Assembly (NCBI RefSeq): GCF_028696615.1
Contig: NZ_JAQVGQ010000004.1
Span: 1 to 35,241, forward strand
Source of the DNA: Immundisolibacter sp.
Lineage (GTDB): Bacteria > Pseudomonadota > Gammaproteobacteria > Immundisolibacterales > Immundisolibacteraceae
Direction: 5' to 3'
DNA: 35,241 bases
The notes beneath the pieces are model-generated. The model was not told where the DNA came from, did not search any database, and saw only the letters and a program-made list of their open reading frames with translations. Numbering within the stretch: position 1 is the first letter of the stretch; every line of letters starts with the position of its first letter. This document shows, one piece after another, positions 3,293 through 31,738 of the stretch. Position numbers and translations under genes: made by a program.

Positions 3293-3450
3293 CTCAGAGT
3301 TTGTGAAGAAATGCGCGTCCCGCGCATTTCTTGCGCCGCCCGTCCGGTACACGCCCGCACGGGCTCCCGCGAATCGAGCCCTCAAGGGCTCGATTCGCGT
3401 CTGGCCATCCCTGGCCGGCCTCGGAGCTTGAAAAATTCACAAGCTCTCAG
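3293..3450. repeat. Family A five-hairpin element, copy A1
   Basis: Sits between the lactonase-like gene and the LLM gene in the same transcription direction. It is flanked by CTCAG direct repeats (3293-3297 and 3446-3450), with ends AGTTTGTGAA and TTCACAAGCT forming an imperfect (9 of 10) inverted repeat. In order it holds: hairpin 1, a perfect 12-bp stem AAGAAATGCGCG (3306-3332, loop TCC); hairpin 2, GCCCGTCCGG with loop TACACGC; hairpin 3, the 13-bp stem GCGAATCGAGCCC; hairpin 4, GGCCA TCCC TGGCC; hairpin 5, GAGCTTG...CAAGCTC. The right-hand CTCAG contains the complement of the upstream gene's TGA stop. Confidence 0.8.
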
Positions 3451-4280
3451 TCGTAGATTCCGCCCACGCGCAGCTTGGGCTCGTCCCGCAGCGGGGTGTC
3501 TCCCTCGTGGCACAGCTTGTGGTCGTGGCCCGGCATGACGCAGGCGTTGTGGGCGCGCGCCAGCATCTTGAGTTTGTGCAGCGAGTGTTTCCAGCGCAGC
3601 AGGTCGTTCGAGATGATCGAGCCGGCTTCGTGGTCGTAGCTGTCTTTCATGTAGCAGGCGTCGGAGGTCAGGATGACCGTGCCGGCGTGCTCCAGGTGCA
3701 CCATCAGCGCCATGGTGCCGGCGGTGTGGCCGGGGGCGCTGATGGCATGCACGTCTTTCAGAATCTCGGTGTCGCCGCCGAGCATGGTGAAGCGCAGGAC
3801 CGGCACGTCGTAATCGCAGCGCAGGAAGAAGTGCTCGTCGCGGGGCATGTTGGCGGCGGCGGCGTACTCGTCCTGGTGCACCAGAATCTTGGTGGACGGG
3901 CAGGTGTTCCAGAGTTTGGCGTTGCCGGCATGATCCACGTGCAGGTGACTCAAAAACACGTAGTCGATGTCCTCCGGCCCGAGCTTGTGGCGCTTCAGGG
4001 TGTTCTCGAGCAGCTGCTCTTCCGTGTAGTCGTCGTAGGGCGCCAGTTCTTTGTATTCCGGCAGCCACTGGTCTTCCCAGTGGCGGTGGATGGCGGCGTC
4101 GAACAGGATGCGCCCGTCCGGGTGGTCGATCAGGAAGGTGAACGACGGCACTTCGCACCAGACCTTGTTTTTCTGGTGGTTGGTTTTGGTCAGCATGAGC
4201 TGCGGGTGCCCGGTGACCAGCAGTTCCAGGTCGGCGTGCATGTTGCCGTGGTGCAGGGGGCGAATGGTGATGCCGCGCAT
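3447..4280 (-). CDS. Metallo-beta-lactamase-fold hydrolase, AHL-lactonase-like
   Basis: A 277-residue zinc hydrolase. The binuclear-zinc motif HLHVDH lies in LSHLHVDHAGN. Further ligands are the His of PGHTAG, the Asp of TSDACYM and the His of PGHDHK, so all canonical metal positions are present. The overall layout resembles N-acyl-homoserine lactonases of the AttM/AiiA type. In this setting it may instead open a lactone or thioester intermediate of the degradation pathway. The start ATG 4280 follows a GAGGAG. It lies 28 bases after the ligase stop, so the two are probably co-transcribed. The TGA stop is the first three bases of repeat A1. The family is certain; the substrate is not. Confidence 0.88.
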   Translation of the reverse strand: MRGITIRPLHHGNMHADLELLVTGHPQLMLTKTNHQKNKVWCEVPSFTFLIDHPDGRILFDAAIHRHWEDQWLPEYKELAPYDDYTEEQLLENTLKRHKLGPEDIDYVFLSHLHVDHAGNAKLWNTCPSTKILVHQDEYAAAANMPRDEHFFLRCDYDVPVLRFTMLGGDTEILKDVHAISAPGHTAGTMALMVHLEHAGTVILTSDACYMKDSYDHEAGSIISNDLLRWKHSLHKLKMLARAHNACVMPGHDHKLCHEGDTPLRDEPKLRVGGIYD

Positions 4281-10015: not shown

Positions 10016-10909
10016 ATGCAACTGGGATACGTGGGGCTCGGCAGCATGGGGCTGCCGATGGCGCTCAATTTGCTGAAAGCCGGTTTCGCGCTGCAGGTGG
10101 TCAGCCGCAGCCGCGGTCCGATCGAGCAGGCGCTGGCTGCCGGGGCGCGCGAGGCGGCCGGCTATGCGGCGCTCGCCGCGGCCTGTGATGTGGTGTCGAC
10201 CTGTCTGCCGATGCCGGCCGACGTCGAGCGCGTGTATCTGGAACCGGACGGTCTGGTGGCACACGCGCGGCCTGGCACGGTGCTGATCGACCACAGCACC
10301 GTGGGGCCGGACACCTGCCGCAAGATCGACGCCGCCGCCCGCGCGCGCGGCGTGCATTTTCTGGATGCGCCGGTGTCGGGTGGCCCGGCCGGCGCGCAGG
10401 CCGGCACGCTCGGCATCATGGTCGGCGGCGAGCGGGCGGTGTTCGAGCGCGTGCGGCCGGTGCTGGACGCCATGGGCAAGACCGTGGTGCACCTGGGGCC
10501 GAGCGGCAGCGGCGCGGTCGCCAAGTTGATCAACAACCTGCTGGTGGGCGTGCACCAGCGGGCGCTGATCGAGATGCTGCTGGTTGGCCACAAGGCCGGC
10601 ATCGACCTCGACGGCCTGTATCAGGTGCTGATGGGCAGCAGCGGGCGCAGCGCGGTTTTGGAAATGATGTACCCGCGCCTGAAGGCGCGTGACTTCGCGC
10701 CTCGTTTTCGCACCGAGCTGCTGCACAAGGACTTGCGCCTGGCGCTCGAGATGGCGGCCGAATACGGCGTGCGCAGCGTCACCGGCGAGGCGGCGCTCGC
10801 CGCGACCGCGGCGGCCATGGCCGCCGGTCTTGGGCGCGAGGACACGCTGGCCATGCTACTGCCGCTGGAGCAGGAGGCGCACACGCGCCTGTTCGGCGAG
10901 GGTGCCTGA
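10016..10909 (+). CDS. NAD(P)-dependent dehydrogenase, 3-hydroxyisobutyrate dehydrogenase family
   Basis: A 297-residue beta-hydroxyacid dehydrogenase. It shows the Rossmann motif GYVGLGSMGLPMA at the N-terminus, the substrate-binding DAPVSGGPAGAQAGTL, and the catalytic-lysine helix GSGAVAKLINNLL. It could oxidise a 3-hydroxy acid such as 3-hydroxyisobutyrate or tartronate semialdehyde, or act as an imine reductase; the sequence does not decide. A strong AGGAGG (10003-10008) precedes the ATG. The final codons GCC TGA merge into repeat A4, which separates it from the convergent queG. Confidence 0.88.
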   Translation: MQLGYVGLGSMGLPMALNLLKAGFALQVVSRSRGPIEQALAAGAREAAGYAALAAACDVVSTCLPMPADVERVYLEPDGLVAHARPGTVLIDHSTVGPDTCRKIDAAARARGVHFLDAPVSGGPAGAQAGTLGIMVGGERAVFERVRPVLDAMGKTVVHLGPSGSGAVAKLINNLLVGVHQRALIEMLLVGHKAGIDLDGLYQVLMGSSGRSAVLEMMYPRLKARDFAPRFRTELLHKDLRLALEMAAEYGVRSVTGEAALAATAAAMAAGLGREDTLAMLLPLEQEAHTRLFGEGA

Positions 10910-11089
10910 GCGCTTGTGAATTTTTCAAGCGCTCAGGCCGGCCAGGGATGGCCGGACGCGAATCGAGCCCTTGAGGGCTTGATTCGCGCGAGCCCGTCCG
11001 GGCGTGCACCGGACGGGCGACACAAGAAATGCGCAGGACGCGCATTTCTTCAGAAACCCTGAGCGCTTGTGAATTTTTCAAGCGCTCAG
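10906..11089. repeat. Family A five-hairpin element, copy A4, with an extra terminal hairpin
   Basis: Lies between two convergent genes and is read in reverse relative to A1. From left: hairpin 5 (TGAGCGCTTG...CAAGCGCTCA), hairpin 4 (CCGGCCA / TGGCCGG), hairpin 3 (GCGAATCGAGCCC / GGGCTTGATTCGC), hairpin 2 (GCCCGTCCGG, loop GCGTGCA), hairpin 1 (AAGAAATGCGC / GCGCATTTCTT). A second complete copy of hairpin 5 follows at 11060-11089. The two hairpin-5 copies begin with the TGA stops of the flanking genes, one on each strand. The element could serve as a bidirectional terminator. Confidence 0.78.
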
Positions 11090-12189
11090 GCGCCGTGGCG
11101 CACCAGCGCCCAGGCCACGTGCTCGCGCACCAGCGCCGATGGGCTGTCGCGGTGGCGGGTAAGACAGGCCACGGCCTGGGCGTCGCCGGCCGGCGCGTTG
11201 CCGAGCGCGACCGCGATGTTGCGCTGCCAGCGCTGGTGGCCGATGCGGCGGATGGCAGAGCCCGCCAGGCGCTGCTCGAATTCCTCGGCGCTCCAGTCCA
11301 TGAGCTCCACCAGGCGCGGCGCGTCAAGGCCCTGGCGCGGCGCGAAGTCGGCCTCGGCGCTCGGCCGCGCGAATTTGTTCCACGGGCACGCCAGCTGGCA
11401 GTCGTCGCAGCCGTAGATGCGGTTGCCGAGCAGCGGGCGCAGCGGCTCGGGGATCGGCCCGGGGTGCTCGATGGTGAGGTAGGAAATGCAGCGCCGCGCG
11501 TCGAGCAGGTACGGCGCCACGATGGCGCCGGTGGGGCACACGTCGATGCAGGCGCGGCAGCTGCCGCAGTGGCCGCTGGCCGGCGCGTCCGTTGGCAGCG
11601 GCAGGTCGGTGTAGATCTCGCCCAGAAAAAACCACGACCCGCCGCGGCGGTCGATCAGGCAGGTGTGCTTGCCGATCCAGCCCAGACCGGCCTGCTCGGC
11701 AAGCGGCTTTTCGAGCACCGGGGCGCTGTCGCAGAACACCCGGTAACCGAACGGCCCGGCCAGGTCGGCGATGTGGTCGGCCAGGCGCTGCAGGCGCTGG
11801 CGCACCGGCTTGTGGTAGTCGCGGCCGAGCGCGTAGCGCGCCACGTAGCCGAGCGCCGGATCGTCCAGCACCGCGCGCGCGTCGGCTGCCGTGCCGGGCC
11901 AGTAGTCGAGGCGCACCGAAATCACCCGCAGCGTGCCCGGCACCAGCTCGGCCGGGCGTGAGCGCTTGCTGCCGTGGCGCGCCATCCAGGCCATTTCGCC
12001 GTGGTAGCCGCGCGCCAGCCAGTCGGCCAGGCGCCGTTCGGCCAGCGGAAGGTCCACGCCGGCGATGCCGCAGCCGGTGAAACCGAGCCGCTGGGCCAGC
12101 GTGCGCACCGTGGCGGCGAGCGCCGCCGGATCGGCGCCCTGGCGGGGTGTTTGGTGGGCGGGTGGCGTGGGGCTGTTGGGATGGGGCAT
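11086..12189 (-). CDS. queG: Epoxyqueuosine reductase
   Basis: A 367-residue cobalamin- and FeS-dependent enzyme that performs the last step of tRNA queuosine synthesis, reducing epoxyqueuosine to queuosine. Two [4Fe-4S] motifs are clear: CGSCRACIDVCPTGAI, and GCDDCQLACPWN with its partner cysteine in RRCISYL. The N-terminal QueG domain includes GYHGEMAWM and the C-terminus is a short HEAT-like extension. I start at ATG 12189 (MPHPNS); the ORF continues upstream to 12687 only as shadow sequence across a decayed repeat. The stop TGA is the first three bases of the extra hairpin in repeat A4. Confidence 0.95.
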   Translation of the reverse strand: MPHPNSPTPPAHQTPRQGADPAALAATVRTLAQRLGFTGCGIAGVDLPLAERRLADWLARGYHGEMAWMARHGSKRSRPAELVPGTLRVISVRLDYWPGTAADARAVLDDPALGYVARYALGRDYHKPVRQRLQRLADHIADLAGPFGYRVFCDSAPVLEKPLAEQAGLGWIGKHTCLIDRRGGSWFFLGEIYTDLPLPTDAPASGHCGSCRACIDVCPTGAIVAPYLLDARRCISYLTIEHPGPIPEPLRPLLGNRIYGCDDCQLACPWNKFARPSAEADFAPRQGLDAPRLVELMDWSAEEFEQRLAGSAIRRIGHQRWQRNIAVALGNAPAGDAQAVACLTRHRDSPSALVREHVAWALVRHGA

Positions 12190-13072: not shown

Positions 13073-13125
13073 CGGCTGTCATGCCTTGCCCGGCGGCGAC
13101 GCCTATAGTCGCTCGCCACTTTTAA

Positions 13126-13277
13126 GGAAGGGCTGAAAAATTCCGTCCATGGAATTTTTCAGCTCGCCGTCGCGCGGTACACGCCCGCACGACGCTCCAT
13201 GAATCAATGGCGTACGCCCTTGATTCATGCCGGGGCATCCTGCCCCGGCGGAAACCGCTGAATAAATCAGCGGTTCC
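13126..13277 (+). mobile_element. Family B five-hairpin MITE-like element, copy B2 (best preserved)
   Basis: A 152-bp element starting GGAAGGGCTG and ending CAGCGGTTCC, flanked by perfect TTAA duplications (13122-13125 and 13278-13281). Hairpin 1 is GCTGAAAAATTCC, 13 bp. Hairpin 2 is CGTCGCGCGG with loop TACACGC. Hairpin 3 is CATGAATCAATGGC with loop GTAC and one mismatch. Hairpin 4 is CCGGGGCA TCC TGCCCCGG. Hairpin 5 is AACCGCTGA ATAAA TCAGCGGTT. Loop 2 is identical to family A copies and loop 4 nearly so, although the stems differ. No ORF is supported. Confidence 0.8.
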
Positions 13278-16177: not shown

Positions 16178-16255
16178 GGGGACTCCTTGGACGATGAAAA
16201 TGCCGCAGCCGGGCGGGCGCCCGGCGCGCGCAGATTATCGGCCAATAGCCGAAGG

Positions 16256-16412
16256 TCAGAGTTTGTGAAGAAATGCGCGTCCTGCGCATTTCTTGCGTCG
16301 CACGTCCGGTACACGCCCGGACGTGCTCACGCGAATCGAGCCCTGGCGGGCTCGATTCGCGTCCGGCCATCCCTGGCCGGCCTGAGAGCTTGAAAAATTC
16401 ACAAGCTCTCAG
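16256..16412. repeat. Family A five-hairpin element, copy A2 (tandem)
   Basis: First of two tandem units, left flank TCAG and right CTCAG. Hairpin 1 is AAGAAATGCGC, hairpin 2 a perfect 10-bp stem GCACGTCCGG with loop TACACGC, hairpin 3 GCGAATCGAGCCC, hairpin 4 CCGGCCA TCCC TGGCCGG, and hairpin 5 GAGAGCTTG...CAAGCTCTC. The hairpin 2 stem differs from A3 on both arms at once (GCAC/GTGC against GCCC/GGGC). Confidence 0.8.
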
Positions 16413-16565
16413 AGTTTGTGAAGAAATGCGCGTCCTGCGTATTTCTTGCGTCGCCCGTCCGGTACACGCCCGGACGGGCTCCCGCGAATCAAGCCCTTAC
16501 GGGCTCGCTTCGCGTCCGGCCATCCCTGGCCGGTCTGAGAGCTTGAAAAATTCACAAGCTCTCAG
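16408..16565. repeat. Family A five-hairpin element, copy A3 (tandem)
   Basis: Second unit, joined to A2 through a shared CTCAG with a 153-bp period. Hairpin 2 is GCCCGTCCGG TACACGC CCGGACGGGC. Hairpin 3 carries changes (GCGAATCAAGCCC / GGGCTCGCTTCGC). The right-hand CTCAG (16561-16565) contains the complement of the cysK TGA stop, so the element begins at the cysK stop codon. Confidence 0.8.
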
Positions 16566-17494
16566 ACGTCGAGGTCGGCGAACAGTGCCGTCGACAGGTA
16601 GCGCTCGCCGGCCGAGGGAATGATGGCGACGATGGTCTTGCCGGCCGCCTCGGGGCGCTTGGCGATCTGCTCGGCCGCCCACAGCGCGGCGCCGGAGCTG
16701 ATGCCGACGAACAGGCCTTCCTCGACCGCCGCGCGGCGCGCGTAGGCCATGGCATTCTCGTCGGTCACCTGCACGATCTCGTCGATGATGCCGGGGTTCA
16801 GGATGGGCGGCACGAAGCCGGCGCCGATGCCCTGAATCTTGTGCGGCGCCGGTTTGCCGCCGGACAGCACCGGCGAGGCCGCCGGCTCGACCGCGATGGC
16901 CTTGAACGACGGCCGGCGCGACTTGATCACTTCCGACACGCCGGTGAGGGTGCCGCCGGTGCCGACGCCGGAGATGAGGTAGTCGACCTCGCCGTCGGTG
17001 TCGCGCCAGATTTCCTCGGCCGTGGTGCGGCGGTGGATGTCCGGGTTGGCCGGGTTCTCGAACTGCTGCGGCATGTAGCTGCCGGGCCGCTCGGCCAGCA
17101 GTTCGCGGGCGCGCTCGATGGCGCCGGTCATGCCCTTCTCGGCCGGTGTCAGCACGATCTCGGCACCCAGCGCACGCAGCACCTTGCGCCGCTCGATGCT
17201 CATCGAGGCCGGCATGGTCAGCGTCAGCCGATAGCCGCGCGCCGCGCACACGAAGGCGAGCGCAATGCCGGTGTTGCCGGAGGTGGGTTCGATGATCTCG
17301 CCGCCCGGCTGCAGGAGGCCGTTTTTTTCGGCCGCCTCGATCATGGCAAGACCGATGCGGTCCTTGACCGACGACAGCGGGTTGAAGAACTCGAGCTTGG
17401 CCAGCACCGTGGCGTCGCTTTTGATCATGCGCCGGATGCGCACCAGCGGGGTGTTGCCGACGGTCTGCGTGATGTCATCGAAAATGCGCGCCAT
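16562..17494 (-). CDS. cysK: Cysteine synthase A (O-acetylserine sulfhydrylase)
   Basis: A 310-residue PLP enzyme making cysteine from O-acetylserine and sulfide. The PLP lysine lies in [11 protein letters not shown] (Lys about 42), the substrate loop is [12 protein letters not shown], and the PLP-phosphate loop is [11 protein letters not shown]. The C-terminal SSGAALWAA and SAGERYLST are CysK-type. I favour CysK over CysM from the GNTPLVRI start and the length. Start ATG 17494 has GGAG upstream; the track's longer start at 17644 is unsupported. It is divergent from thiE. It may also supply cysteine for the Isc/nif genes, but nothing in the sequence ties it to them. Confidence 0.95.
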
Positions 17495-19569: not shown

Positions 19570-19764
19570 TCAGCCGAGCTCGTCGATCCAGGCCTGCTGC
19601 AGCGCTTCCAGCACCCGCTCGCCGCAGCGCTCGGGGGCATCATCGAAGCCCGGCAGCGCCAGCACCCAGGCGCGCAGCTCCGTGAAGCGCGCCCGCCGCG
19701 GGTCGACCTGCGGGTGGTGCTCGGCGAGCGCTTCGGCCAGCGCCTGACTGTCGGTCCATTTCAT
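19570..19764 (-). CDS. iscX: Fe-S assembly protein IscX
   Basis: A 64-residue acidic protein, the YfhJ/IscX family, which binds IscS and modulates cluster assembly, possibly as an iron-dependent regulator. It begins MKWTDSQALAEALAEHHPQVDP and contains FTELRAWVLALPGFDD, both typical. Its ATG overlaps the ferredoxin stop (ATGA), showing translational coupling. It is the last gene of the isc operon. The track's longer ORF to 20019 is shadow. Confidence 0.93.
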   Translation of the reverse strand: MKWTDSQALAEALAEHHPQVDPRRARFTELRAWVLALPGFDDAPERCGERVLEALQQAWIDELG

Positions 19765-20098
19765 GCAGATTCGCGGGCGTAGTTGAGCGTGTAGCGCGGG
19801 ATTTCGACGGTGAGATCCGCCTGGCCGACACGCGCCTGACACGACAGGCGCGAACAGGCTTCGAGCCCCCAGGCGCGGCCGAGCTGGTCTTCCTCGTCGT
19901 CGCTGGCGGCGCGCAGCGAGCGAAAGCCCTCGCGCACCAGCACGTGGCAGGTGGTGCACACGCAGGCTTTCTCGCAGGCGTGCTCGATGGCCACGCCATG
20001 GGCGGCCAGCGCGTCGCACAGCAGCGTGCCCGGGCGGGCCTCGAAGCGGGCGCCTTCAGGGCAAAGCTCGGCGTGCGGCAGGACGGTGATGGTAGGCA

Positions 20099-20099
<1 letters not shown>
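19761..20099 (-). CDS. fdx: Isc-type [2Fe-2S] ferredoxin
   Basis: A 112-residue adrenodoxin-type ferredoxin that supplies electrons for cluster assembly on IscU. The ligand cysteines follow C-x5-C-x2-C (CEKACVCTTC), with the fourth in CSRLSCQ. A cysteine takes the place of the usual small residue within the first loop. It starts MPTITVLPHAELCPEG, the normal Fdx N-terminus. Its ATG overlaps the hscA stop by one base and its stop overlaps the iscX start. Confidence 0.94.
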
Positions 20100-21954
<1,855 letters not shown>

Positions 21955-21955
<1 letters not shown>

Positions 21956-22455
21956 CAGGCGTCCACCTCCTCGTCGGCGAGGCGCTCCAGCAGCCGGCGC
22001 AGCGCACCGAACTCGAGCAACAGCGCGCCCGCGGCGGCGTCCTCGCCATCGAGCGCGTTTTCCAGGCGCGCCGTGCAGGCGTAAAGCCGCGTGCGCAGCT
22101 CCGCGCCCAGACGCTCCAGCGCGGCGGCGTCGCCGCGACGGCGGGCGGCATCGAGCGCTTCGTGCCAGTCCATCTGCTGCATCAGCAGCGCGGCCGGGGC
22201 GCGCAGGCCGCTGCTGTCGATGCCGCGCAGGGCCAGCAGATGGGCGGCGCGCCGGCCAGGGTCTTTGAGTGTCTGATAGGCATCGTTGAGCGCGGTGGCG
22301 GCATCGAGCGCCGCGGCCTGCGCAGCGGCATCGGCCAGGCGGTGGCGGTCCGGGTGACTCGCCCGGGCGCGCTCGCGGTAGGCGCCGTCGAGCGTCGCGC
22401 GATCGACGGCGAAGCGCCGCGGCAGGCCGAGCAGGGCGAAGCAGTCGGCGGTCAT
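21955..22455 (-). CDS. hscB: Fe-S assembly co-chaperone HscB (J protein)
   Basis: A 166-residue type III J-domain protein that delivers IscU to HscA and stimulates its ATPase. The J domain at residues 1-75 has the HPD motif in RASHPDRH. The C-terminal helical domain includes [13 protein letters not shown], the IscU-binding type of segment. One-base overlaps with hscA and close spacing to iscA show it is part of the isc operon. Confidence 0.95.
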
Positions 22456-22459
22456 GGCG

Positions 22460-22783
22460 TCAGGCGCTGAAGCTCTCGCCGCAGCCGCACTCGCCGCGCG
22501 CGTTCGGGTTGTCGAACTTGAAGCCCTCGTTCAGGCCCTCGCGCACGAAATCGAGCCGCGTGCCGTCGACGTGGATCAGGCTCGCCGGGTCCACCAGCAC
22601 GGTCACCCCGCCGCTGTCGAAACGCAGGTCGTCCGGCTGCGCCTCGTCGGCGAATTCGAGCAGGTACGACAGGCCCGAGCAGCCCGACGGGCGCACGCCC
22701 AGCCGCAGGCCGACGCCGCGGCCGCGGTTGGTGAGCGCCTTTTGCACGTGGCGGGCGGCGGCTTCGGTCAGGGTCACGGCCAT
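22460..22783 (-). CDS. iscA: A-type Fe-S carrier IscA
   Basis: A 107-residue A-type carrier that binds and passes on Fe-S clusters. The three conserved cysteines are in PSGCSGLSY and ECGCGESF. The length and the [13 protein letters not shown] start fit IscA proper. It follows the erpA-like gene, from which it is separated by a REP-like palindrome, and precedes hscB by four bases. Confidence 0.93.
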
Positions 22784-22842: not shown

Positions 22843-22912
22843 ATGTAGGAGCGGCTTCAGCCGCGAATGGCGGGATTTCGCGGCTGAAGCCGCTCCCACG
22901 AAGGCTCCTACG
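22843..22912. repeat. REP-type palindrome within the isc operon
   Basis: A perfect 20-bp stem (GGAGCGGCTTCAGCCGCGAA and its complement, 22848-22896) around a 9-base loop, with outer TGTAGGAGC / GGCTCCTACGA. This is the GTAGGAGCGGCTTCAGCCGCGA type of REP common in Pseudomonas and xanthomonad genomes. It lies in the 159-base gap between the erpA-like gene and iscA, the only sizeable gap in the isc operon. Confidence 0.85.
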
Positions 22913-22942: not shown

Positions 22943-23284
22943 TCACACCGTGAACGAATTGCCGCAGCCGCAGGTGCTGGCGGCATTGGGGTTCTTGATG
23001 ACGAAGCGCGCGCCGGACAGGTCTTCCTGGTAGTCGATCTCGGCGCCGCCCAGGTACTGGATGCTCATCGCATCCACCAGCAGCGTGACGCCGTCGCGCT
23101 CGACCGCGGTGTCGTCGTCGGCGGCCGTCTCGTCGAACGAGAAGCCGTACTGGAAGCCCGAGCAGCCGCCGCCGGCCACGAACACGCGCAGCTTCAGCGC
23201 CGGGTTGCCTTCGTCGTCCAGCAGCGCGCGCACCTTGCCGGCGGCGGCGCTGGTGAACTGCAAGGGTGATGCGAGGTCGTTCAT
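22943..23284 (-). CDS. erpA: A-type Fe-S carrier, ErpA-like
   Basis: A 113-residue A-type carrier with cysteines in [11 protein letters not shown] and [41 protein letters not shown] closely follows the ErpA pattern rather than IscA. In E. coli erpA is a separate locus; here it sits between iscU and iscA in the operon. It therefore gives two distinct carriers in one transcript, perhaps one for nitrogenase maturation. ATG 23284 gives the normal ErpA N-terminus; the 177-aa track ORF starts too early. Confidence 0.88.
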
Positions 23285-23295
23285 GGCGGTCTCCG

Positions 23296-23700
23296 TCAGG
23301 CGGTGTCGGTGCTGGCCAGCGCGTCCTGCTTGGCGCGCAGGTCGTCGATGGCGGCGCGGATGGCGTCCTCGGCCAGCACCGAGCAGTGCAGCTTCACCGG
23401 CGGCAGCGCCAGTTCCTCGGCGATGGCGGTGTTCTGGATGGCTAGCGCCTGGTCCAGCGTGCGGCCCTTGAGCCACTCGGTGACCAGCGAGCTCGACGCG
23501 ATCGCGCTGCCGCAGCCGTAGGTCTTGAAGCGCGCATCGGCGATGACGCCGTCCTCGTCGACGCGAATCTGCAGGCGCATGACGTCGCCGCAGGCCGGCG
23601 CGCCGACCATGCCGGTGCCGACCTGCGGGTCCTGCACGTCGAGCGTGCCGACGTTGCGCGGGTTCTCGTAGTGGTCCAGCACGCGATCGCTGTAAGCCAT
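23296..23700 (-). CDS. iscU: Fe-S cluster scaffold IscU
   Basis: A 134-residue scaffold on which [2Fe-2S] and [4Fe-4S] clusters are built from IscS sulfur. It carries the three ligand cysteines with the nearby Asp ([32 protein letters not shown]) and the HscA-recognition LPPVK motif in [11 protein letters not shown]. It is a stand-alone U-type protein, not the longer three-domain NifU. It starts 28 bases after iscS. Confidence 0.97.
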
Positions 23701-23728: not shown

Positions 23729-24940
23729 TCAGTGCGTGGCCCACTGCACGGTGGCCAGATCGATGCCCTGCAGGTGCATGTCCCACAGCGGCGACAGCTC
23801 GCGCAGGCGGCCGACCTCGCGCGTCAGTTCGGCGATCGCGAAGTCGACCTCGGCCTCGGTGGTGAAGCGGCCAAGGCTCAGGCGCAGCGAGCTGTGGGCG
23901 AGCTCGTCCGGCAGGCCGAGCGCGCGCAGCACGTACGAGGGTTCGAGGCTGGCCGAGGTGCAGGCCGAGCCGCTGGAGACGGCGATGTCCTTGATGGCCA
24001 TCATCAGCGACTCGCCCTCCACGAAGGCGAAGCTGAGGTTGAGGTTGTGCGGCACCCGCTGCACGGGATCGCCGTTCAGGTACACCGCGTCGAGCGCCAT
24101 CAGGCCGCGCTTGAGGCGCTCGTGCAGCGCCGCGATGCGGGCGTTGTCGGCCGCCATCTCGAGGCGCGCCAGGCGAAACGCCTCGCCCATGCCGGCGATC
24201 TGGTGCGTCGGCAGCGTGCCCGAGCGCGCGCCGCGCTCGTGCCCGCCGCCGTGCATCTGCGCTTCCAGGCGCACGCGCGGCTGGCGGCGCAGGTACAGCG
24301 CGCCGATGCCCTTGGGGCCGTAGGTCTTGTGGGCCGAGAACGACATCAGATCGACCGGCAGGGTGGCAAGATCGATCGGCACCTTGCCGGTGGCCTGCGC
24401 GGCGTCCACGTGCAGCAGCACGCCGCGCTCGCGGCACAGCGCGCCGAGCGTCGCGATGTCCTGCACCACGCCGATCTCGTTGTTCACCAGCATCACCGAG
24501 GCCAGCACCGTGTCCGGGCGCAGCGCCGCGGCAAAACGGTCCGGGTCCAGCAGGCCGCTGTTGTCGGGGTGCAGGTAGGTCACCTCGTAGCCGTCGCGTT
24601 CCAGCGCGCGCATGCTGTCGAGTACCGCCTTGTGCTCGGTGGTCACCGTCACCAGGTGGCGGCCGCGGTCCTTGTAGAACTGCGCCGCGCCCTTGATGGC
24701 GAGGTTGTTCGACTCGGTGGCGCCCGAGGTCCAGACGATCTCGCGCGCCTCGCAGCCGACCAGCGCCGCCACCTCGGCGCGCGCCTCGCCGACGGCTTCC
24801 TCGGCGGCCCAGCCAAACCGGTGCGAGCGGCTGGCGGGATTGCCGAAGTGTGTTTCGAGGTAGGGCAGCATCTTGGCCACCACGCGCGGGTCGACGGGGG
24901 TGGTGGCGGCGTAGTCGAGATAAACCGGCAGTTCGGGCAT
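23729..24940 (-). CDS. iscS: Cysteine desulfurase IscS
   Basis: A 403-residue PLP enzyme that takes sulfur from cysteine for Fe-S clusters. It has the N-terminal [15 protein letters not shown], the PLP lysine in [14 protein letters not shown], and the mobile catalytic-cysteine loop [10 protein letters not shown]. The long loop and the C-terminal [17 protein letters not shown] are IscS-type rather than NifS-type. It is the first gene of the operon, with no iscR ahead of it. Instead a sigma-54 promoter lies about 65 bases upstream of the ATG, divergent from nifA. Confidence 0.96.
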
Positions 24941-25002: not shown

Positions 25003-25018
25003 CGCAAGCCCTGTGCCA
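25003..25018 (-). promoter_or_regulatory. Sigma-54 promoter of the isc operon
   Basis: On the minus strand TGGCACAGGGCTTGCG fits the -24/-12 consensus, with GG and GC separated by exactly 10 bases. It is 63 bases upstream of the iscS ATG and 106 bases from the centre of the NifA-type activator site. The fit to TGGCAC-N5-TTGC is essentially perfect. It implies RpoN-dependent, NifA-activated expression of the isc genes. Confidence 0.85.
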
Positions 25019-25090
25019 GCAGCTTGTCTGGCGGATAAGCAGGCGATTGAGAAAGAGTTTCTTCGGCAGCGACGGGGGACGGCCGCAGCT

Positions 25091-25130
25091 GCGTGTACGG
25101 TTTGTCGGGTTGGCGACAGAGCGTGTACGG
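25091..25130. repeat. Ten-base direct repeats flanking the NifA site
   Basis: GCGTGTACGG occurs exactly at 25091-25100 and 25121-25130, a 30-base period (about three helical turns), with the activator palindrome between them. This may mark additional protein-binding sites or a local duplication. Confidence 0.6.
25103..25118. promoter_or_regulatory. NifA upstream activator sequence shared by isc and nifA
   Basis: TGTCGGGTTGGCGACA matches the NifA site TGT-N10-ACA. It shares 14 of 16 bases with the site ahead of nifB. Its centre (25110.5) is 106 bases from the -12 GC of both flanking sigma-54 promoters, so one palindromic site could serve both directions. Confidence 0.82.
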
Positions 25131-25202
25131 CCTGTGGGCCCTTCGTCGGGTGGACGGGGTTCCCGGTGGCGGCACGGCGTGGCGCCCGAGCAGCCACTAC
25201 CT

Positions 25203-25218
25203 TGGCATCGCAGTTGCT
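25203..25218 (+). promoter_or_regulatory. Sigma-54 promoter of nifA
   Basis: TGGCATCGCAGTTGCT fits the -24/-12 pattern with 10 bases between GG and GC, 72 bases upstream of the nifA ATG. With the activator site at about -118 it implies positive autoregulation of nifA. Confidence 0.78.
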
Positions 25219-25290: not shown

Positions 25291-26901
<1,611 letters not shown>

Positions 26902-27054
26902 GGAAGCGCTGATTTATTCAGCGTTTCCCGTTCGGGGCAGGATGGCCCGGCATGAATCAAGGGCGTCAGCCCTTGATTCATGGAGCGCCTCGCGGGCGTG
27001 CACCGCGCGGCAGCGAGCTGAAAAATTCCATGGATGGAATTTTTCAGCATTTTC
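26902..27054 (-). repeat. Family B five-hairpin element, copy B3 (reverse orientation)
   Basis: Starts GGAAGCGCTGATTTATTCAGCG right after the nifA TAG and ends at hairpin 1 (GCTGAAAAATTCC...GGAATTTTTCAGC). The order is reversed relative to B2: hairpin 5, a GGGGCA/TGGCCC hairpin 4, an ATGAATCAAGGGC/GCCCTTGATTCAT hairpin 3, hairpin 2 with loop GCGTGCA, hairpin 1. Flanks TTAG (26898-26901) and TTGG (27055-27058) are an imperfect duplication. It separates nifA from the convergent acr3 gene. Confidence 0.75.
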
Positions 27055-27083
27055 TTGGCAGGTCCTGTCGGATACGAAACCGC

Positions 27084-28133
27084 TCAGGCGGCCCGGTGTT
27101 CGTACCAGCCCCGGCTGCGATTGACCACGCGCACCACCAGCAGCATCACCGGCACCTCGATCAGCACGCCGACCACGGTGGCGAGCGCGGCGCCGGACTC
27201 GAAGCCGAACAGGCTGATGGCGGTCGCCACCGCGAGTTCAAAGAAATTGGACGCGCCGATCAATGCCGAAGGACAGGCCACGTTGTGCTGCTCGCCGAGG
27301 CGGCGGTTCAGGAGGTACGCCAGCGCGGAATTGAAGAACACCTGTATCAGGATCGGCACCGCCAGCAGCGCGATCACCAGCGGCTGGCGCAGGATCGCCT
27401 CGCCCTGAAACGCGAACAGCAGCACCAGCGTTGCCAGCAGCGCCGCCGTCGACCACGGCCCGATGCGCGCCATGGCGGCATCGAACGCATCCTGCCCGCG
27501 CGACAGCAGCGTCCGGCGCCACAGCTGCGCCAGGATCACCGGGATCACGATGTACAGCACCACCGACGTGAGCAGCGTATCCCACGGCACGTGGATGGCC
27601 GAGATGCCGAGCAGCAGGCCGACCAGCGGCGCAAACGCGAACACCATGATGGTGTCGTTGAGCGCCACCTGCGTGAGCGTGAACAGCGGATCGCCATTGG
27701 TGAGGCGGCTCCACACGAACACCATGGCCGTGCACGGCGCCGCCGCCAGCAGGATCAGACCCGCGATGTAGCTGTCGATCTGCCCGGCCGGCAGATACGG
27801 CGCGAACAGCTGGCGGATGAACAACCACGCCAGCAGCGCCATCGAAAACGGCTTGACCAGCCAGTTCACGAACAGCGTGACGGCGATGCCGCGCACGTGC
27901 CGGCGCACCTGCCCCAGCGCGCCGAAATCCACCTTCACCAGCATGGGGATGATCATCACCCAGATGAGCAGCCCCACCGGCAGGTTGACGCGCGCGATCT
28001 CGAGCCGGCCGATCCACTGCACGGGTCCCGGCAGTGCCTGGCCGAGCGCGATGCCGGCCACGATGCAGGCGAACACCCACAGCGTGAGGTAGCGCTCGAA
28101 GGTGGATAGGGCAGCGGGCGGCGTTTTATTCAT
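27084..28133 (-). CDS. acr3: ACR3-family arsenite efflux permease
   Basis: A 349-residue membrane protein with about ten hydrophobic helices that exports arsenite using the proton-motive force. Family markers are LLIWVMIIPMLVKVDFGAL, the conserved cysteine in LLAAAPCTAMVFVWSRLTNGDP, and the conserved Glu in GASNFFELAVATAISLFG. It is ACR3, not the unrelated 12-helix ArsB. It is the third gene of arsR-arsH-acr3, 30 bases after the arsH stop. Confidence 0.95.
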   Translation of the reverse strand: MNKTPPAALSTFERYLTLWVFACIVAGIALGQALPGPVQWIGRLEIARVNLPVGLLIWVMIIPMLVKVDFGALGQVRRHVRGIAVTLFVNWLVKPFSMALLAWLFIRQLFAPYLPAGQIDSYIAGLILLAAAPCTAMVFVWSRLTNGDPLFTLTQVALNDTIMVFAFAPLVGLLLGISAIHVPWDTLLTSVVLYIVIPVILAQLWRRTLLSRGQDAFDAAMARIGPWSTAALLATLVLLFAFQGEAILRQPLVIALLAVPILIQVFFNSALAYLLNRRLGEQHNVACPSALIGASNFFELAVATAISLFGFESGAALATVVGVLIEVPVMLLVVRVVNRSRGWYEHRAA

Positions 28134-28163
28134 CGGGACGGCTCCGGTGGGGGTGGGGTGAGG

Positions 28164-28901
28164 TTATTCACTGGCGGCCCGGTCTTCGACCGCACCGGCG
28201 GCCGCCGCCAGCGCCTTGGCGTCGTCCGCGCCTTTGCGTTCGCTGTAGCGGTCGACCAGGTAGTCGGTCCGATCGCGCACCAGCAGCGTGAACTTGACCA
28301 ACTCTTCCATCACGTCGACCAGGCGATCGTAGTAGGGCGATGGTTTCATGCGCCCGTCGGCATCGAATTCCTGCCACACCTTCGGCACCGACGACTGGTT
28401 GGGGATGGTGACCATGCGCATCCAACGCCCCAGCACGCGCAGCGCGTTGACCACGTTGAACGATTGCGAACCGCCACACACCTGCACCACCGCCAGCGTG
28501 CGGCCCTGCGTGGGGCGCACGCCGCCTTCCTCGAGCGGCAGCCAGTCGATCTGGTTCTTGAACACGCCGGTGAAGGTGCCGTGCCGTTCCGGGCTCACCC
28601 ACACCTGACCCTCCGACCACTGCGACAGCGCGCGCAGCTCCTGCACCTTGGGATGTGTGACCGGCGCGCCGTCTACCAGCGGCAGGTCGTGCGGGTCGAA
28701 CAGCCGCGTGTCGGCGCCGAAGTGCCGCAGCAGGCGCTCGGCTTCGAGCGCCAGCAGCCTGCTGTACGACGGCGGCCGCAGCGAGCCGTAGAGCAGCAGG
28801 ATGCGCGGCGGGTGGGTGGCGGCGACGGCGGGCGCAAGGCGCTCGGCCGTCGGCCGCTCGAGCGCGTCGGGCGACGCGTTGGGCAAGTCGTCAAGTGTCA
28901 T
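28164..28901 (-). CDS. arsH: NADPH-dependent FMN oxidoreductase ArsH
   Basis: A 245-residue flavodoxin-like FMN protein of the ArsH family, which oxidises organic trivalent arsenicals or otherwise protects against arsenic. Signatures are [47 protein letters not shown] and [21 protein letters not shown]. The gene overlaps the arsR stop by 11 bases, indicating coupling. No arsC reductase gene is in the cassette. Confidence 0.95.
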
Positions 28902-29253
28902 CAGGGTTGTTCTTGTCGGTGAGAGTCGGGGTGGGGCGGATAGGGTGGGCAGTCGCCTGCAGGCACGGCTGACCTTGGCAGCAGTTGTCGGTGAGGTAAC
29001 TCAGCAGGTCGTTCATGCGCGCGTAGTCGGTGCGGTAGACGAGGTGCCGGCCGCGGCGCTCTTGCTCGATCAGGCCGGCGGTGCGCAGTTCCTTCAGGTG
29101 AAACGACAGCGTCGCCGCCGGCAGTTCGAGCGCTGCGGCGATGGCGCCTGGCGTTGCCCCGTCGCGGCCGGCGACCACCAGCCAGCGAAACACCCGCAGG
29201 CGGGTGGGTTGGGCAAGCGCGGCGAGCGCCTTGATCACGTTCTTTTCTTCCAT
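28891..29253 (-). CDS. arsR: Arsenic-responsive repressor ArsR
   Basis: A 120-residue winged-helix repressor of the ArsR/SmtB family. The DNA-reading helices are in [33 protein letters not shown]. The usual ELCVCDL metal site is absent. Instead cysteines 91, 92 and 97 (NCCQGQPC) near the C-terminus resemble the atypical arsenite site of Acidithiobacillus ferrooxidans ArsR. As the first gene of the ars operon it probably represses its own promoter in the nifB-arsR spacer. Confidence 0.92.
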
Positions 29254-29377: not shown

Positions 29378-29393
29378 TGTCGGGTCTGCGACA
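29378..29393 (+). promoter_or_regulatory. NifA upstream activator sequence of nifB
   Basis: TGTCGGGTCTGCGACA is an exact TGT-N10-ACA site, centred 77 bases from the -12 GC of the nifB promoter. It is nearly identical to the isc/nifA site. Confidence 0.85.
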
Positions 29394-29448: not shown

Positions 29449-29464
29449 TGGCATGGCGGTTGCG
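29449..29464 (+). promoter_or_regulatory. Sigma-54 promoter of the nifB operon
   Basis: TGGCATGGCGGTTGCG has the -24 TGGCA and -12 TTGC elements with 10 bases between GG and GC. It is 83 bases upstream of the nifB ATG. With the activator site upstream, it should drive the whole nifB operon. Confidence 0.88.
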
Positions 29465-29546: not shown

Positions 29547-31100
29547 ATGCACACCGCGCAATCGAACACCCAAGAACTGCTGTCGCTGGATGCTTTGCTG
29601 CAGAAGGCAGCCGAACACAAGGGCTGCGGCACCTCGTCCGACGGCGGCAAGGCGAGCTGCGGCTCGTCCGACGGTCCGGCCGACATGGCGCCGGAGGTGT
29701 GGGAGAAGGTGAAGAACCACCCCTGCTACAGCGAGGAGGCGCATCACCACTACGCGCGCATGCACGTGGCGGTGGCGCCGGCCTGCAACATCCAGTGCAA
29801 CTACTGCAACCGCAAGTACGACTGCGCCAATGAATCCCGTCCCGGCGTGGTGAGCGAAAAGCTCACCCCAGAGCAGGCGGCCAAGAAGGTGCTGGCGGTG
29901 GCCTCGACCATCCCGCAGATGACGGTGCTCGGCATCGCCGGCCCGGGCGATCCGCTCGCCAATCCCGACAAGACCTTCAAGACCTTCGAGCTGATATCGA
30001 AGACCGCGCCCGACATCAAGCTGTGCCTGTCGACCAACGGTCTGGCGCTACCGGACCACGTCGACACCATCGCCAACTTCAACGTGGACCACGTCACCAT
30101 CACCGTGAACATGGTCGACCCCGAGGTCGGCCAGCACATCTACCCGTGGATCTACTACAAGAAAAAGCGCTGGACCGGCATCGACGCCGCCAAGATTCTG
30201 ACCGAGCGGCAGATGCAGGGCCTGGAGATGCTGACCGCGCGCGGCATCCTCAGCAAGATCAACTCGGTGATGATCCCGGGCATCAACGACCAGCACCTGG
30301 TCGAAGTGAACCGGGCCGTCAAGAGCCGCGGCGCCTTCCTGCACAACATCATGCCGCTGATCTCGGCGCCCGAGCACGGCACCGTGTTTGGCCTGAACGG
30401 CCAGCGCGGCCCGACCGCGCAGGAGCTGAAGGCCCTGCAGGACGCCTGCGAGGGCGAGATGAACATGATGCGCCACTGTCGCCAGTGCCGCGCCGACGCC
30501 GTCGGCCTGCTGGGCGAGGACCGCAGCGCCGAGTTCACCACCGACAAGATCGACGCCATGGAGGTGGTCTACGACGCCGACACGCGCAAGGCCTACCAGG
30601 AGCTGGTCGAGCAGGAGCGCCAGGCCACGGTCGCGGCCAAGGAGGCGGAAAAGGCCGAGCTGGCCAAGCTCGCCGACGCCGAGGGCATTTCGCTGCTGAT
30701 CGCCGTCGCCACCAAGGGCCAGGGCAAGGTCAACGAGCACTTCGGCCACGCCAGCGAGTTCCAGATCTACGAGGTCGATGCCAAGAGCTCGAAGTTCGTT
30801 GGCCACCGCCGCGTGGACCTCTACTGCCAGGGCGGCTACGGCGAGGAGGACACGCTCGAAACCGTGGTCCGCGCCATCAACGACTGCCACGCCGTGTTCG
30901 TGGCCAAGATCGGCGGCTGCCCAAAGGCAGATCTCGCCAAGGCCGGCATCGACCCGGTGGACAGGTACGCCCACCAGCACATCGAGCAGTCGGTGATCGC
31001 CTACTTCATGGACTACGTCGGCCGCGTGCGCGCCGGCGAGATCACCCACCAGAGCCGCGGTGATGCCGACATCCGCCAGGGTGCCTTCATCGCCGCCTGA
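29547..31100 (+). CDS. nifB: Nitrogenase FeMo-cofactor biosynthesis protein NifB
   Basis: A 517-residue radical-SAM enzyme that fuses two [4Fe-4S] clusters with a carbide and sulfide into NifB-co, the precursor of FeMo-co. The SAM cluster motif C-X3-C-X2-C is CNIQCNYC (Cys80, 84, 87). It is preceded by [21 protein letters not shown] and followed by [29 protein letters not shown] provides further cluster cysteines. A C-terminal NifX-like domain starts near residue 380 ([16 protein letters not shown]). The start has AGGAGG upstream. Confidence 0.98.
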
Positions 31101-31360: not shown

Positions 31361-31738
31361 ATGGACATCACCATCACGCCGGCGGCGCAGAAGTTCATGC
31401 GCCGCATGGTGCGCTTCGGCGGCGAGGGGATGACCGGCTTTCGGCTGCAGGTGAGCCCGGGCGGCTGCTCGGGTCTTTCCAGCGAGTTCACGGTCGAAAA
31501 GGCGCCACAGCCGGGCGATGTGGCAATCGCGCTCGACGGCTTTGCGCTGTTCCTGCCGGCGCAAAGCCGCCTGCTGCTGCACGGCGCTACGGTGGACTTT
31601 GCCGACACGCCGACCGAGTCCGGCCTCGTGTTCCGCAACGTGGCCGGCGGCGGCAGCTGTTCCAGCCAGAAACCGACCAGCGCGCCGGCACTCGCCACCG
31701 TGGACGTGGCCAGCATCGGCCGCGGCGGGCGGCCGTAG
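31361..31738 (+). CDS. Nif-cluster HesB/IscA-like protein
   Basis: A 125-residue A-type-carrier homologue. The first cysteine is present in SPGGCSGLSSEF (Cys36). The C-terminal pair is reduced to one cysteine in GGGSCSSQ (Cys100), where IscA and ErpA have CGCG. It then has a 25-residue tail. It may carry a cluster between subunits with fewer ligands, or have another role around NifB. An in-frame GTG at 31352 overlaps the fdxN stop and could be the true, coupled start. Confidence 0.85.
   Translation: MDITITPAAQKFMRRMVRFGGEGMTGFRLQVSPGGCSGLSSEFTVEKAPQPGDVAIALDGFALFLPAQSRLLLHGATVDFADTPTESGLVFRNVAGGGSCSSQKPTSAPALATVDVASIGRGGRP

Follow-up and report, generated by a model that had tools for sequence, protein, structure and literature searches.

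The demand for Fe-S clusters is much higher for nitrogenase than for ordinary metabolism, and attempts to engineer nitrogenase into new hosts commonly depend on NifU and NifS. That NifA can activate its own gene and control genes for Fe-S assembly is already known. Like nifUS and the other NifA/sigma-54-dependent nif operons, the locus described here appears to place nitrogenase-dedicated Fe-S genes in a nif cluster under NifA and RpoN; it differs in carrying a full Isc operon (IscS, IscU, an ErpA-type carrier, IscA, HscBA, Fdx, and IscX), and neither a NifU nor a NifS equivalog was found in the genome. The Herbaspirillum seropedicae nif cluster carries hsc, fdx, and hes genes within seven NifA- and sigma-54-dependent operons, with nifU and nifS also reported (PMC3093359), but neither a complete Isc operon nor an upstream activator sequence (UAS) shared with nifA is described there. 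On the acid-mine-drainage fosmid DX-1A-14, hscA and erpA lie between nifA and nifB with predicted sigma-N sites (PMC3912193), but only these two genes are reported, nifS is elsewhere in the cluster, and there is no full isc operon. As NifA/sigma-54-dependent nif operons with hsc genes have already been reported, the isc case is a variant on a known theme.

Plasmid pBN1 of Paraburkholderia aromaticivorans BN5 (NZ_CP022991.1) resembles our locus in carrying nifB and a nifA divergent from iscS-iscU-erpA-iscA-hscA-fdx-nifV-nifW, but hscB is not annotated and the spacer is without an exact UAS. Paenibacillus polymyxa WLY78 is a diazotroph without nifU or nifS and must use another Fe-S system for nitrogenase; Paenibacillus has suf genes (PMC8038749), whereas our locus has an apparently dedicated Isc operon linked to nifA. 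An RNA-seq paper on NifA in Paraburkholderia phymatum names only one Fe-S assembly accessory protein among its listed genes. We found no description of a complete NifA-controlled Isc operon replacing NifUS, or of a UAS shared with nifA, in a literature search that covered few subscription journals.

The window is the 35,241-nucleotide stretch of Immundisolibacter sp. DNA analysed here, and its features are collected in Table 1. Family models confirm that the operon is complete from iscS to iscX, with IscS, IscU, IscA, HscB, HscA, Fdx, and IscX in order and each passing its equivalog cut-off. It shares its core proteins and a near-identical gene order with the IscR-regulated iscRSUA-hscBA-fdx operon, but has no iscR, carries an extra erpA between iscU and iscA, and has NifA/sigma-54 sites instead. 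The first-pass annotation had noted the lack of iscR, and this was borne out: no IscR equivalog scores over cut-off anywhere in the window's assembly, and the position divergent from iscS is held by nifA. The presence of erpA inside nif-linked isc operons contrasts with a survey of A-type carriers, which describes ErpA-type (ATC-I) contexts as lacking genes for Fe-S biosynthesis (PMC2682760). The erpA-type gene and iscA are separated by 159 bp, and this gap contains a REP-like hairpin (AGGAGCGGCTTCAGCCGCG and an inverted copy, 22846-22911) that might, in the window species, attenuate transcription into the isc genes beyond it; by tblastn positions, the same gap is approximately 150 bp shorter in the congeners.

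Table 1. Genes and putative control sites of the isc-nif locus (positions in the window)
Feature	Position	Strand	Basis
iscX	19570-19764	-	TIGR03412, 107 bits (cut-off 40)
fdx, Isc [2Fe-2S] ferredoxin	19761-20099	-	TIGR02007, 163 bits (cut-off 132)
hscA, chaperone	20099-21955	-	TIGR01991, 821 bits (cut-off 708.6)
hscB, co-chaperone	21955-22455	-	TIGR00714, over cut-off
iscA	22460-22783	-	TIGR02011, 156 bits (cut-off 150.6)
erpA-type A-type carrier, between iscU and iscA	22943-23284	-	NF010147 (ErpA), 179 bits (cut-off 117)
iscU, one-domain scaffold, not NifU	23296-23700	-	TIGR01999, 216.5 bits (cut-off 192.4); TIGR02000 below cut-off
iscS, cysteine desulfurase	23729-24940	-	TIGR02006, 672.7 bits (cut-off 643.2)
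sigma-54 -24/-12 promoter towards iscS, TGGCACAGGGCTTGCG	25003-25018	-	-12 GC at 25004-25005
NifA UAS, TGT-N10-ACA, TGTCGGGTTGGCGACA	25103-25118 (centre 25110.5)	.	sequence, conservation, shuffle test
sigma-54 -24/-12 promoter towards nifA, TGGCATCGCAGTTGCT	25203-25218	+	-12 GC at 25216-25217
nifA, activator (GAF, AAA+, HTH)	25291-26901	+	TIGR01817, 717 bits (cut-off 529)
NifA UAS of nifB, TGTCGGGTCTGCGACA	29378-29393	.	pattern match
sigma-54 promoter of nifB, TGGCATGGCGGTTGCG	29449-29464	+	pattern match
nifB	29547-31100	+	TIGR01290, 696 bits

Read directly, the 350-bp spacer between iscS and nifA contains one UAS flanked by two opposed sigma-54 promoters. A sigma-54 promoter was defined as a -24/-12 element with GG and GC 10 bp apart (TGGCAC-N5-TTGC), and a UAS as TGT-N10-ACA approximately 80 to 150 bp upstream of a promoter. 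Both promoters in the spacer have this element, and the centre of the UAS palindrome is 106 bp from the centre of the -12 GC on both sides, which agrees with the positions and distances first reported for these three sites. The genome encodes both RpoN (475 bits) and NifA. TGT-N10-ACA by itself occurs in the window at chance level (3 found versus 2.8 expected), so the case rests on the combined promoter and UAS module and on its conservation. TGGCAY-N5-TTGC is enriched (3 found versus 0.25 expected), with all three matches preceding iscS, nifA, or nifB, and the module is found at two places in the window, whereas 100 shuffles of the window gave none. A consensus scan of the spacer returned no sigma-70-like promoter, although a weak one could escape such a scan, and no NtrC, IHF, or FNR consensus sites.

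The window's assembly is fragmented (325 contigs, 95.6% complete, 6% contamination); its key features recur in two congeners, the complete genome G002 (one contig, 3.24 Mb, 100% complete) and G001. Genome-wide searches used the module pattern GCAA-N6-TGCCA-N75..105-TGT-N10-ACA and, as a control, the reversed pattern. G002 has four matches, namely the two divergent iscS/nifA sites, one before nifH, and one before nifV, so all four targets are nif genes or the isc operon; G001 has four matches and G000 two, and the reversed pattern had none genome-wide. In both congeners iscS and nifA are divergent and all three sites are retained, with TGTCGCGTTGGCTACA as the UAS. Between the window and the congeners, 25 of 25 core positions are invariant, versus 165 of the 325 positions elsewhere in the spacer (Fisher p ~1e-7). 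The iscS-side promoter, which is TGGCACACGGCTTGCG in the congeners, is the better conserved of the two and stands 106 bp from the UAS centre in all three genomes, whereas the nifA-side promoter, TGGCACCCGTATTGCA in the congeners, stands at 108 bp there and at 106 bp in the window. Exact 106/106 symmetry was therefore rejected as a functional constraint. Of the conserved spacing that the first-pass annotation had proposed looking for in related genomes, the three sites are kept and exact equidistance is not; the congeners keep a shared UAS about equally far from the two promoters, and a site exactly midway is a property of the window genome only.

No NifU equivalog over cut-off and no NifS-like match were found in G000-G002; IscU and IscS equivalogs are present instead of a multidomain NifU and NifS, and apart from the IscS of the isc operon no IscS/NifS-type desulfurase was found there. 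A full SUF system including SufS and SufU is present; SUF occurs in the window's genus and also in its sister genus, which belongs to the same family. The Rrf2 regulator beside sufB in G002 is of the SUF type (suf_reg_Xantho) and precedes sufB-sufC-sufD-sufS. SUF is thus likely the housekeeping Fe-S system in the family. In the nif-less sister genus (G003-G006), neither HscA nor an IscS equivalog was found and no NifA scored over cut-off, so Isc tracks nitrogen fixation in the family. Three sister-genus genomes (G003, G004, and G006) have a stand-alone short IscS-like desulfurase (L275, L276, and L277) that scores approximately 390 to 400 bits, below the IscS cut-off; this protein was not found in the window's genus. 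With SUF under its own regulator, no NifU or NifS, and a nif-less sister genus without Isc, the Isc operon looks dedicated to nitrogenase. The coupling of Isc to nitrogen fixation proposed at first reading is therefore supported, but with a change in its meaning: the operon more likely replaces NifUS than represents a housekeeping Isc system brought under NifA.

In a class-wide sample, NifA scored over cut-off in 32 of 369 genomes; HscA was then placed in these and in a Rubrivivax MAG (G373), which was added via its NifA match. An iscR-less, nif-linked operon with erpA between iscU and iscA occurs in six further genomes: G219 (isc divergent from nifA, with nifB downstream of nifA), G143 (nifV-nifW after isc), G257 (isc divergent from nifHDK), G373 (isc upstream of nifW-fixABC-nifA), a plasmid of Methylococcus sp. 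EFPC2 (isc-nifV-nifW, near nifL), and P. aromaticivorans pBN1. The nine nif-linked IscS proteins form one clade (97/89), separate from 22 housekeeping IscS proteins that include one from the same order (G007), and the HscA proteins of the window's genus, G219, G373, G143, and G257 form another (100/99); the operon's IscS and HscA therefore group with nif-linked Isc and not with the housekeeping Isc of related organisms. The erpA-type gene between iscU and iscA marks the nif-linked type, being found in 9/9 nif-linked versus 0/22 housekeeping operons; IscR is encoded close upstream of iscS in most housekeeping operons but in 0/9 nif-linked ones. Within 450 bp of iscS, 7/9 nif-linked operons have a UAS/sigma-54 pair, versus 1/22 (doubtful) housekeeping operons. 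The two exceptions are G219, which has two UASs but a degenerate -24/-12 element towards iscS, and P. aromaticivorans, in which the -24/-12 element is present in the nifA-iscS spacer and the exact UAS is not. The one housekeeping pair (locus L120) was treated as chance, its -12 box being CCGC and not TTGC. In two genomes with HscA on the nifA contig (G268 and G327), ordinary iscR-linked housekeeping operons lie nearby, and these served as controls.

The reading that we prefer, with a probability of roughly 80%, is that NifA and sigma-54 drive both isc and nifA from the shared spacer, that Isc is dedicated to nitrogenase in the place of NifUS, and that SUF is the general system. The first part, RpoN/NifA control of the whole isc operon, had been suggested from the window and gains support from the congener sites, the presence of RpoN, the module at nifH and nifV in G002, and the independent nif-linked operons, most of which have such sites upstream of iscS. 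It would fail if only nifA were NifA-controlled from the spacer, the iscS-side -24/-12 element being fortuitous and isc being transcribed from an unrecognised promoter. One-sided sigma-54 matches can arise by chance (0.25 expected per window), but the iscS-side element is the better conserved of the two promoters, at a fixed 106 bp, and equivalents precede iscS in other nif-linked operons, including those of G257, G143, and EFPC2, where the divergent gene is not nifA; we consider a fortuitous site improbable. We give even less credence to an ancestral housekeeping Isc operon that merely lost its iscR and whose position next to nifA would be a coincidence. The proteins do pass ordinary Isc equivalog cut-offs, but they cluster with nif-linked Isc from different families, apart from the iscR-linked Isc of G007; every relative in the clade shows both the inserted erpA and the link to nif genes, and the nif-less kin have no Isc.

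It is harder to set aside a dual-use Isc operon, boosted by NifA and sigma-54 during fixation and otherwise kept on for housekeeping such as tRNA thiolation by a weak constitutive promoter, so that it would not be strictly nif-dedicated. Its IscS is the only desulfurase of its type found in G000-G002, the sister genus having a stand-alone IscS-like protein instead, and the operon includes components of general Isc systems such as IscX and both A-type carriers; however, the spacer has no sigma-70-like site, SUF is complete, with SufS and SufU, and the sister genus manages with no Isc operon. On balance we find dual use possible but rather unlikely. Even with a nitrogenase-dedicated operon, having this IscS as the only IscS/NifS-type desulfurase leads us to expect some NifA-independent expression if tRNA thiolation needs IscS.

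With nitrogenase-dedicated Isc under shared control as the working model, the spacer would act as a bidirectional sigma-54 control region. NifA is predicted to bind the single TGT-N10-ACA and to contact RpoN-RNA polymerase at either divergent -24/-12 promoter by looping DNA over approximately 106 bp, driving iscS-iscU-erpA-iscA-hscB-hscA-fdx-iscX leftward and its own gene rightward, with predicted 5' leaders of approximately 50 to 60 nt on either side. One NifA site serving two divergent promoters by looping is the simplest reading. The analysis shows the sites, their conservation, the gene content, the SUF/IscR/NifUS inventory, and the clade, and we infer NifA binding, looping, autoactivation, and dedication to nitrogenase. 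Isc would then be a nitrogenase-dedicated Fe-S assembly line in the role that NifU/NifS has in Azotobacter and Klebsiella, a role suggested by its nif linkage and regulation, while the separately regulated SUF operon would do general Fe-S assembly. The output of isc would be expected to follow NifA activity (low fixed nitrogen) and not IscR feedback. As read from the translation, NifA also has an interdomain Cys motif, C-x11-C-x19-C-x4-C, a type of motif that has been connected with redox sensing in the NifA of alpha- and betaproteobacteria (PMC10590331); low oxygen therefore probably also raises isc output.

More broadly, and with less confidence though still leaning in its favour, we propose that iscS-iscU-erpA-iscA-hscBA-fdx, without IscR and under NifA/sigma-54 control, is a monophyletic, horizontally spread machine that replaces NifUS in beta- and gammaproteobacteria and may be a third dedicated solution to nitrogenase Fe-S supply, with an ErpA-type carrier directed to nitrogenase and, in some lineages, one NifA site shared with nifA. 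Such an operon, free of IscR feedback and switched on together with nifA, would be an alternative supply module, and if the proposal is true, the shared NifA site in those lineages would be a single on-switch for activator and Fe-S supply. It makes testable the question of whether a chaperone-assisted Isc route (IscU, HscBA, and ErpA) can feed NifB, NifH, and NifDK without NifU. It is also a warning for the interpretation of diazotroph genomes: the presence of iscS-iscU-hscA does not imply a housekeeping Isc system.

Between nifA and nifB (27084-29253), three genes read by eye as arsenic-resistance-like are all on the minus strand: an ACR3-like transporter (27084-28133), an ArsH-like gene (28164-28901), and an ArsR-like gene (28891-29253). 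They look like an insertion within the nif cluster, since nifA and nifB are adjacent in G002 (L144). Downstream of nifB and a ferredoxin, at approximately 31361-31738, lies a further A-type (HesB/IscA-like) carrier, which brings the A-type carriers in the nif region to three. The window also has dispersed repeats of two families (3293-3457, 10906-11091, and 16255-16572; 1645-1760, 13124-13251, and 26933-27056), approximately 120 to 190 nt long with inverted arms and in both orientations, one copy lying directly downstream of nifA. In G002 (L145 and L149), identical 327-aa transposase-like ORFs are found near nifHDK and downstream of the suf operon, and insertion elements seem to have broken up the nif region of that genome.
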